NCBI GenBank assembly: GCA_019359155.1
Contig: JAHHHV010000066.1
Span: 1 to 64,000 of the forward strand
From: Pegethrix bostrychoides GSE-TBD4-15B
Lineage (GTDB): Bacteria; Cyanobacteriota; Cyanobacteriia; Elainellales; Elainellaceae
Direction: 5' to 3'
Length of the DNA: 64,000 nt
The notes under the pieces are model-generated. The model was not told the DNA's origin, ran no database searches, and saw only the letters and a list, made by a program, of their open reading frames with translations. The position numbers were made by a program, and so were the translations under genes. Shown here one piece after another: positions 28,219-30,980 of the stretch; position 1 is the first letter of the stretch, and every line of letters starts with the position of its first letter.

Positions 28219-30489
28219 ATGCAAGCGACCTCATGGCGGCCTGCTGCTGCTCCTATACCTGAAGCCTTTAGCGCTCTAGTCAGTCAATTTTGTCCCAGTG
28301 CGTCGCCCCATCTGGTGCCGCTTTTGTGGCAGCGCCAGATTCGGCAGCCGGAGCAGCTAGCTGGCTTTTTAGATGCCGTTCAGTATCAACCCACTGATCT
28401 CAATCACGCGCCAGATCACTTTGGCGCTGAGACTGGTAGAGCAGTGGCTCGCTTGGAGCAGGCTCAGGCAAACGCTGAGAAACTGCTGATTCTGGGTGAA
28501 GCTAGCGCTGCTGGAATTACGGCCACAGCCTTGCTCTGGGAAGGATTGAGCCAGATCTTTGCCGCAACGCAGCTCACCTATCAGGTGGCTCGCCGATTTG
28601 ATCTAGAAGCGCTGGCCGCAGCAGGCTGTTCGCTGGTGATTGGCTGTGGCCGCAGCGAGCTAGTTTCGCAGGCTGAAGCGGCGGGTCTAGAGCTAATTTT
28701 GCTGGATCAATCTTGGCCTACCGATCTGTCTAGTCTGTCTAGCTGCCCCAATGTAGCCCGGTTAAACTCACGCCTGTTACCCATCGAGCATCCGCTAGCA
28801 GGTCTGCCAACTGTAGCGGTGGCCTACAAACTGATGGAAGCCCTTGCCACAGCCCTGAATGCAGGTGACATGACCCACTTACTCGATCTCGTGGCGATTG
28901 GGCTGCTGGCTGGGCCGGTGCAGCTGACGGGCGAGAGTCGCTATCTGGCGCAGATCGGGGTTGCCAGCCTTCAGCGCCACCAAGATCTGGTTAATTCCCC
29001 GCGTCCCGGCTTGGCTCAGCTCTTGCAGCTCTGCCGAATGACGGGCGATCGGCCTAGCGATATTGCCATGGGTCTAGGGCCGCGCATTCAGGCGATTAGC
29101 CGCCTATGGGATGACCCAAATCGCTGCGTCGAGCTGTTGATCAGCCAAGATGCAGATCGCGCCGCTCAGCTCGCGCAGCAGACCGAGCTAGCCAACGCGC
29201 GGCGGCAAGTCTTGCAGCGACAGGTGGTGACTCAAGCCAAAGCCAAGCTCGCTCAGCTAGATCTGTCGACAACCCGCGTGATTCTGCTGAGCGATCCGCA
29301 GTGGCCAACCGAAATTCTGGGGCTGGCCGCAGGGCAATTGGCGCAAGACTATGGCCGTCCGGTAATTTTGTTGAGCGATGCAGAGGAACTAGCTTCCGGG
29401 TCAGCCAGAATCAGTGGTAGAGGTGAATCTGCTTGGCTCTCAGGCGATCTCTGTGCGCTCTTGCAGCCGCAGGCCAACTGGCTCAGCGAATTTTGGGGAG
29501 AGGGTGCGGCGGCTGAGCTGCGCTTGCCCAGCCAGAATATTGCGCCCTTTGCTGAGGCGATCAATCAGCAGGCGCGGGTCATAGGTTTAGAAGTGCAGCC
29601 TCTCACAGCCGATTTAGAAGTCACGGTAGCTGAACTGGGCAAAGCGCTGTTTCAGGAGCTGCGGCGGCTCGAACCCTACGGTATCGGCAATCCCACGCCG
29701 CTGCTGCTGATTCGTGGCGGCTGGTTGACGCAGGTCTGGCATCGCAAAATCCGCGATCTCAGCGGCCAAAAGCTGGACTATATCAAAACCGAGTTTGAGC
29801 TGTGGGATGAGACAGCAGAGCAGGGCTTTCCGGGCGTTTGGTGGGGACATTACAAAGACGAGCTGCCCGTCGGACGCTGCGATCTACTGGTGGAGCTGGA
29901 CTTCAATAGCTACGAAGATGCCAAACGCCGCCGCCGCTATGAGGTGCGACTGATTGCGGTGAGGCCAGCCGCAGATGGCAGTGGAGATGACAGCACCGAT
30001 TTGAACCTAGATTTGAATCTATTCGTGGAGCTGCTGGACTGGCGCGGTGAGGTTCTTGCTCCGGCAGAAGCTGACTGTTTGAAACTCACAGCCTGTCCCA
30101 AGAGTTGGCAGGAGGTTGAGGGTTGGGTAGAGCAGGCGCAGCAGCAGGGCCAAAAACTAGCGCTGGCCTATCAGATGCCTAGCTTGCCGTCGCCTGCAAC
30201 GGTCTGGCAGCAGCTAGTTGAACAGGCCCCTCTCTTGAACCAGGCTCAGCTTCAAGCCCAACTTCAAGCCCAGCTTGGACTCAGCCCACAAACGCTCAAA
30301 CTGGGACTGGCGGCGCTGAGAGAGCCGACCAGCCAGCAGTTCATTCAGGCGGTCGCGCAGGAGCAGTTTATGCAGCGATATTTCTGGCAGGTGTCACTGG
30401 CGACGCTGCAGGCCACATTGCGATCTAGACGGCAGACTGACAGCAGTTTGGCTGGAGTGCTTCAAAAAATTCGGAACAAAAACGGATAG
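28219..30489 (+). CDS. RecJ-like protein with degenerate catalytic motifs
   Basis: A 756-residue homologue of the single-strand-specific exonuclease RecJ (DHH/DHHA1 family). Collinear landmarks remain: IRQPEQLAGFLD, ITATALLWEGL, VAVAYKLMEAL, LDLVAIGLLAG, ISGRGESAW and the C-terminal LEPYGIGNPTPLLLIRGG with an OB-fold after it. The metal ligands are gone: motif I GDYDADG reads GEASAAG, DHH reads DQS, G-T-(I/V)-A-D reads GLLAGP, and the DHHA1 GGHxxAAG reads GEGAAAE. The frame is long and uninterrupted, so it is maintained, probably as a non-catalytic or binding protein, comparable to archaeal/eukaryotic Cdc45. The ATG at 28219 is preferred to the TTG two codons earlier. Function is inferred. 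Confidence 0.8.
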   Translation: MQATSWRPAAAPIPEAFSALVSQFCPSASPHLVPLLWQRQIRQPEQLAGFLDAVQYQPTDLNHAPDHFGAETGRAVARLEQAQANAEKLLILGEASAAGITATALLWEGLSQIFAATQLTYQVARRFDLEALAAAGCSLVIGCGRSELVSQAEAAGLELILLDQSWPTDLSSLSSCPNVARLNSRLLPIEHPLAGLPTVAVAYKLMEALATALNAGDMTHLLDLVAIGLLAGPVQLTGESRYLAQIGVASLQRHQDLVNSPRPGLAQLLQLCRMTGDRPSDIAMGLGPRIQAISRLWDDPNRCVELLISQDADRAAQLAQQTELANARRQVLQRQVVTQAKAKLAQLDLSTTRVILLSDPQWPTEILGLAAGQLAQDYGRPVILLSDAEELASGSARISGRGESAWLSGDLCALLQPQANWLSEFWGEGAAAELRLPSQNIAPFAEAINQQARVIGLEVQPLTADLEVTVAELGKALFQELRRLEPYGIGNPTPLLLIRGGWLTQVWHRKIRDLSGQKLDYIKTEFELWDETAEQGFPGVWWGHYKDELPVGRCDLLVELDFNSYEDAKRRRRYEVRLIAVRPAADGSGDDSTDLNLDLNLFVELLDWRGEVLAPAEADCLKLTACPKSWQEVEGWVEQAQQQGQKLALAYQMPSLPSPATVWQQLVEQAPLLNQAQLQAQLQAQLGLSPQTLKLGLAALREPTSQQFIQAVAQEQFMQRYFWQVSLATLQATLRSRRQTDSSLAGVLQKIRNKNG

Positions 30490-30854
30490 CGATAGGGACG
30501 GTCAGGATTACCCAACACCCTGACCACTGCAATAATCGGCATTACAAACGTCGCGATCCCTAGCAGCACCAGCAGCGGAATGCCAATTAGAAAAAAAATT
30601 AGCAGCGCGAAGATAATCGCATAAATGTAAGTATTGATATGAAAGTTGAGCGACTCGACTGCGTTAGCTTTAACCACCGGGTCGTTGGTGATCAGCAAGA
30701 TGACAATCGGCACCGCAATCGAGACAAACAGCGAGCTAAAAAAGATTGCCCCATGACTGAGAGCCGAGAGCAATTTACGCTGAGCGATACTGGGCTGATG
30801 ATCTTGCTGCATGGCTACTGATAGAAGGGTTTCATCCATCATAAGCGGTGACAT
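30462..30854 (-). CDS. DUF4870-type small membrane protein
   Basis: About 130 residues. Three membrane segments are visible: GAIFFSSLFVSIAVPIVILL, YIYAIIFALLIFFLIGIPLLVLLG in parts, and IATFVMPIIAVVRVLG. The motif VKANAVESLNFHIN and the end RPYRYPFLFRIF fit DUF4870 proteins, whose function is unknown. The start is uncertain: ATGs at 30854, 30842 and 30809 are possible and none has a good ribosome-binding site. The frame further upstream begins with TTG. The last 28 bases overlap the end of the convergent RecJ-like gene. Confidence 0.75.
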   Translation of the reverse strand: MSPLMMDETLLSVAMQQDHQPSIAQRKLLSALSHGAIFFSSLFVSIAVPIVILLITNDPVVKANAVESLNFHINTYIYAIIFALLIFFLIGIPLLVLLGIATFVMPIIAVVRVLGNPDRPYRYPFLFRIF

Positions 30855-30980
30855 ATCAACGTCAAAATCGATTGCAAAAGCAATGGGCTGTCTAGATCGG
30901 CTGGAGCGGGTTGTCAAAACCGCAGATTATATTGAGATTAGTAAAGATTAGTAAAGAGAAGTCAGGCCGGGAGGCTCCAA

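Follow-up and report, generated by a model that had tools for sequence, protein, structure and literature searches.

A RecJcy orthologue with a dismantled active site appears to be kept under selection in the cyanobacterium Pegethrix bostrychoides

RecJ nucleases and their inactive relatives

Catalysis by the bacterial RecJ protein drRecJ (structures 5F54-5F56) depends on six metal ligands, D79, D81, D83, D135, H159 and D223, and on the general base H160. Three further residues, Arg280, Ser371 and Arg373, hold the 5' phosphate; Arg313 acts as a gateway, and Arg280 doubles as a helical gateway. Alanine at metal-binding residues leaves drRecJ almost fully inactive (PMC4846377). RecJ has been inactivated independently in the Crenarchaeota, in the Halobacteriales, and as Cdc45 (PMC3307487).

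The cyanobacterial lineage has its own recJ paralogue, recJcy, for which Synechocystis sll1354 is the seed (PMC5101192). RecJcy is known chiefly for impeding transformation and the maintenance of plasmids, and it has been assumed to do so as a nuclease. In S. elongatus, disruptions of recJcy, of a cas4-like gene and of the PD-(D/E)XK gene Synpcc7942_0992 share a plasmid and transformation phenotype (PMC10653904).

A RecJcy orthologue at its original locus

The window analysed here is a stretch of 64,000 nucleotides from Pegethrix bostrychoides GSE-TBD4-15B (contig JAHHHV010000066.1, positions 1 to 64,000). It contains the following gene and domains:

28219..30489, plus strand: recJcy orthologue, catalytically dead, encoding P0001 (756 aa); assigned by open reading frame, homology and locus order
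29608..29943, plus strand: OB domain; all 14 residues that are invariant in the family are retained, and the two species with the dead protein are 90% identical here
29944..30486, plus strand: C-terminal helical domain, helices predicted at residues 659-755

The reading frame runs from an ATG at 28219 to a stop codon at 30487-30489 and has no internal stop, just as a sequence-only reading of the window had described it. That reading also proposed homology to RecJ over the full length, which several comparisons bear out. P0001 matches the NCBIfam recJ model TIGR00644 (E 1.8e-71) with 241.1 bits, under the curated equivalog cut-off of 396.9 bits that the intact orthologue L007 clears with 460 bits. 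The RecJ_OB domain exceeds its Pfam cut-off; DHH and DHHA1 score beneath theirs. P0001 matches drRecJ 5f54 at 4e-29 (phmmer), and its AlphaFold2 model (mean pLDDT 83) finds drRecJ 5f55 as the best Foldseek match, full-length, with E 3.1e-36. The DHH-DHHA1-OB fold is therefore present in the model. Cdc45 structures match it much more weakly (1e-9 to 1e-5 versus 1e-36). A C-terminal domain of the PF10141 type found in Firmicute RecJ was considered and gave no Pfam match in P0001.

Sequence, tree and locus all identify P0001 as the orthologue of RecJcy, still in its place, and not of RecJec. In the tree, P0001 and its sister sequence are nested within the RecJcy clade of the genus Elainella (support 0.964), apart from RecJec. 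The intact RecJcy genes of Elainella saxicola (L009) and Elainella sp. Prado103 (L013) have the same neighbours as P0001: a BY-kinase and an SLBB gene upstream; aldehyde dehydrogenase (ALDH), glutaredoxin and tadA genes downstream. RecJcy is intact in three genomes of the same genus (G010, G011, G012), at the same locus in two of them. A duplicate or horizontally acquired copy is thus ruled out, the locus being shared with the intact RecJcy of the genus. P0001 resembles RecJcy in sequence, locus order, tree position and layout (DHH, helices, DHHA1, OB, C-terminal helical domain); it differs in having lost all of the catalytic motifs, and in DHH and DHHA1 domains that fall short of the Pfam cut-offs.

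The genome (99.97% complete) encodes one other RecJ, a RecJec of 1077 aa on contig C84, in which every motif is intact and which is 31% identical to P0001. A second, active-looking recJ, for which the sequence-only reading had advised a check, therefore exists. C77 encodes a third member of the DHH family, a distant one of 452 aa. The RecJec of this group (L003, 1846-5079, minus strand) owes its 1077 aa to a long extra C-terminal region, which is missing from many other cyanobacterial RecJec (frames of about 600-700 aa).

Within the order of the window genome, 35 of 36 genomes contain at least one match to P0001; mostly there are two, one per paralogue. The search across the phylum found no strong RecJcy match in picocyanobacteria-sized genomes (f19) or in out-of-class genomes (f31 and others). 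Four genomes of family f5 (G104, G108, G121, G123) yield one P0001 match each, RecJcy, at the threshold used; with three candidates scored per genome, these may rely on RecJcy without RecJec.

Loss of the two-metal site

The correspondence between P0001 and drRecJ was read from the phmmer alignment. The motifs lie as follows:

28495..28515, plus strand: former motif I, GEASAAG versus family GDFDADG; ligands D79, D81 and D83 replaced
28642..28650, plus strand: former motif II, G-C-(two-residue deletion)-G versus TCDTG; ligand D135 deleted
28705..28713, plus strand: former DHH motif, DQS; the metal-ligand and general-base histidines lost
28900..28926, plus strand: former motif IV, GLLAGPVQL versus GLIADLVQL; D223 replaced by G, D in the sister species
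29071..29103, plus strand: motif V, GLGPRIQAISR; Arg280 equivalent kept, N replaced by Q (Q291)
29398..29409, plus strand: motif VI, GSAR kept; it contains the residues equivalent to Ser371 and Arg373, which bind the 5' phosphate
29491..29517, plus strand: former motif VII, FWGEGAAAE versus FGGHPFAAG

The two-metal site (DxDxD, D135, DHH and D223) is absent: all six ligands are substituted or deleted (D79 to E94, D81 to S96, D83 to A98, D135 deleted, H159 to Q164, D223 to G232). The general base has also gone (H160 to S165), and H397 has become E428. The claim that every metal-binding motif is lost thus holds, with two qualifications: DHH retains its Asp (drRecJ D158, P0001 D163), and D79 to E94 is a conservative replacement.

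Residues that contact nucleic acid fare better. The equivalents of drRecJ R109, R280, R313, S371 and R373 are all present (R126, R295, R329, S395 and R397), R126 being Ser in the sister species. Two contacts are weakened or lost: the loop that carries the Tyr114 equivalent is deleted, and the Phe269 equivalent is Met. Family-invariant residues are kept most fully in the OB domain, as listed above, then in the helical region (28/32), the DHH domain (40/57) and DHHA1 (18/26). P0001 thus shares with bacterial RecJ and RecJec, including the copy on C84, the overall fold and several DNA-contact residues; it differs in lacking the metal ligands and the general base, and in its rewritten motif VII.

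Constraint after the loss

The sister genome PMM_0073 (G013; locus L006, the same as L086) encodes a RecJcy whose motifs are dead in the same way (DQS, the deletion in motif II, Q291 and WGEGAAAE) and which lies amid the same neighbours. Sequencing or assembly error is ruled out, since a second genome carries the same replacements. Within the lineage the loss is common to P0001 and this one sister species only. The motif VII stretch is near-identical in the two, whose longest identical run is 29 residues; their motif I sequences differ, and so does the D223 position, still D in the sister. This indicates that the former active site kept changing after the shared loss. A TGA in the sister gene trims the final codons relative to P0001. 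In the window, a DUF4870-like gene on the minus strand, listed at 30462-30917, shares 28 bases (30462-30489) with the 3' end of recJcy; its L006 counterpart lies just beyond the earlier recJcy stop.

The dead pair is 70% identical, compared with 80% for RecJec and 82-88% for the neighbours of the same two genomes. The protein sequence has thus changed more quickly than that of RecJec, chiefly in the N-terminal and DHH domains, which are 59-62% identical. In a branch codon model, omega is 0.123 for the background, 0.408 for the stem of the dead pair and 0.190 for its tips (about 0.15-0.24 by profile); synonymous divergence is near saturation, so these values are approximate, and the conclusion is independent of their exact size. 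Fixing the tips at omega = 1 is worse by 125 log units, and every domain separately rejects 1. (The stem omega of the C-terminal domain alone is unstable: 12, on a near-zero branch.) Between the same genomes, omega is 0.07-0.10 for the neighbours, 0.146 for RecJec and 0.184 for RecJcy. With 1.8 unselected substitutions per codon, neutral drift should have introduced about 26 stops (simulated range 13-45), and P0001 has none. The codon model excludes wholesale relaxed selection. The sequence-only reading would have yielded to a loss confined to this strain with high dN/dS; instead, the sister shares the loss and dN/dS is 0.19.

Parallel losses and a possible partner

All catalytic residues are kept in about 197 of 214 RecJcy rows, in which some genomes are entered twice; one further row deviates solely by a conservative R to K. 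Orthologues are thus overwhelmingly intact, and a conserved inactive cyanobacterial family was rejected. The earlier suggestion of a cyanobacterial scaffold family defined by motif loss is not supported either: around P0001 the loss is recent and spans two species, and motif loss elsewhere takes the form of independent parallels.

Family f12 contains degraded RecJcy, to varying degrees, in eight genomes of three genera: g52 (G137, G147); g65 (G173, G215, G330, G331, G332); and g133 (G333). RecJcy is intact in genus g36 of that family, and the search gave no RecJcy match in genus g66 (G179, G329). In family f20, RecJcy of G139 is dead and that of its congener G151 is intact. The frame is kept in all of these dead genes except that of G333, which has a stop (in an assembly that is 67% complete). 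In the tree, the f12 dead clade is sister to intact g36 (support 0.998) and L229 is sister to the intact L225 (support 1.0). Judged from these sequences, at least two further groups of cyanobacteria have each lost RecJcy catalysis on their own. A smaller f12 tree places one g65 sequence closer to the intact genus, which makes the number of losses inside f12 uncertain. Constraint persists there too: omega within the dead clade is 0.136 over seven diverged sequences, and omega = 1 is worse by 455 log units. GSAR has gone from the dead copies of f12, those of g52 and g65 among them, so retention of the 5'-phosphate pocket does not extend to all dead RecJcy; the g65 copies still have DHH.

Of the 54 intact loci that have long flanking sequences, 32 encode a PD-(D/E)XK protein (PF12705) upstream of RecJcy, on the same strand (for example L027, 267 aa; L014-L085). 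Many members have Cas4/AddB-like cysteines. A GNAT-like acetyltransferase, so named from the appearance of its sequence, occurs at 25 of the 54. Across 46 genomes, RecJcy and the nuclease occur together in 34, neither in 8, RecJcy alone in 3 and the nuclease alone in 1 (Fisher p 5e-6, uncorrected for relatedness); RecJcy presence was taken from the earlier genome searches with P0001, and G080, with a fragment match only, was scored as lacking PD-(D/E)XK. One may guess that the S. elongatus cas4-like gene or Synpcc7942_0992 is this co-occurring gene. In one genome the reverse case is seen: in G023, the PD-(D/E)XK active site (L258) is degraded (QILVWST for QILDWKTYP) and RecJcy (L088) is intact.

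The three genomes with RecJcy alone are the window genome, in which a genome search found no PD-(D/E)XK gene, the sister PMM_0073 (77% complete) and the intact G011 (91% complete). This distribution suggests that the window lineage probably lost the nuclease no later than about the time when RecJcy catalysis was lost. As an explanation for P0001 the partner is accordingly weakened, because a retained role cannot depend on a gene that the genome lacks. The dead RecJcy proteins of f12 and of G139 belong to the same family as P0001 and show the same degradation of catalytic motifs; they differ in that their losses are independent and in that their genomes do have the PD-(D/E)XK gene, whose active-site residues (D and DWK) are conserved in the copies that were read.

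Why keep a dead nuclease?

Purifying selection on the frame after the loss makes a non-nuclease task, as the sequence-only reading had proposed, the best reading. P0001 is probably a lineage-specific pseudonuclease that selection retains as a non-cutting nucleic-acid-binding protein. Two-metal catalysis would have been lost from RecJcy, at the original locus, in the ancestor of the window species and PMM_0073; purifying selection would then have kept the dead protein for binding. The kept OB domain, the fold and most phosphate-contact residues suggest that P0001 may still bind, but not degrade, single-stranded DNA, with 5' ends as the probable site. It might protect or mark such ends, or serve as a DNA-binding or scaffold subunit, with the intact RecJec, encoded at another place in the genome, taking care of digestion.

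More tentatively, RecJcy at large may have a second, catalysis-independent role, with at least three lineages having turned it into a purely structural DNA-binding subunit, parallel to the path from RecJ to Cdc45. The protein would normally partner the co-occurring Cas4/RecB-like PD-(D/E)XK nuclease against foreign DNA. This is possible rather than probable.

Alternatively, the gene may be decaying: catalysis would have gone by chance once the partner nuclease had vanished or RecJcy was no longer needed, and the frame would not yet have broken. The burst on the stem (omega 0.41), divergence of the dead pair beyond RecJec and the neighbours, the continuing differences in motifs I and IV and the missing PD-(D/E)XK gene all fit such decay. 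It is nevertheless unlikely, given a tip omega of 0.19 with 1 rejected in each domain, a frame free of the expected stops, in-frame indels, a nearly unchanged OB domain, and another dead clade retained for long under constraint.

A structural subunit of the replicative helicase or fork, akin to Cdc45 or GAN, has a fair precedent in the inactive RecJ proteins of archaea and in Cdc45 (PMC3307487), itself among the fold matches of P0001 and named as a precedent by the sequence-only reading. As in those proteins, catalysis was lost independently within the RecJ family and the protein was retained. P0001 differs in its separate origin, its full-length bacterial RecJ architecture with OB and C-terminal domains, and its lack of a GINS/MCM context. 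To our knowledge, GINS and MCM are absent from bacteria altogether. Moreover, the nearest relatives and the fold are those of bacterial RecJcy and RecJ, far closer than Cdc45 or archaeal RecJ, and the flanking genes are not replication genes, so a replisome role of this kind seems improbable.

Equally doubtful is a modulating role, directed at RecJec or at incoming DNA, in which the dead copy would compete for 5' ends or partners, damp resection and favour the uptake or retention of foreign DNA. Gains of RSF1010 maintenance and transformation in S. elongatus recJcy mutants (PMC10653904), and the rise in Synechocystis transformation on deletion of sll1354 (PMC10667661), accord with the idea; plain loss of the gene, however, would give equal relief without the constraint that is seen.

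A hydrolase with a rebuilt metal site (E94, D163 and E428, for example) is very improbable: acidic residues do lie near the former site, and the two species of the dead pair share a fixed new motif VII that contains E428 and E433, but D135, D83, both DHH histidines and D223 are gone, alanine at such ligands nearly abolishes drRecJ activity (PMC4846377), and motifs I and IV are not the same in the two species.

Implications

The open-licence literature searched yielded no description of a bacterial RecJ that is catalytically dead. Inactivated RecJ is already familiar from archaea and Cdc45; what is new is the recurrent evolution of pseudonucleases within RecJcy. An active site that is repeatedly lost from a protein that is kept points to a second role, separable from catalysis. 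Dead RecJcy proteins are natural separation-of-function variants, and would provide a bacterial example of the path from RecJ to Cdc45. For RecJcy itself, the co-occurring PD-(D/E)XK gene offers a concrete candidate partner.
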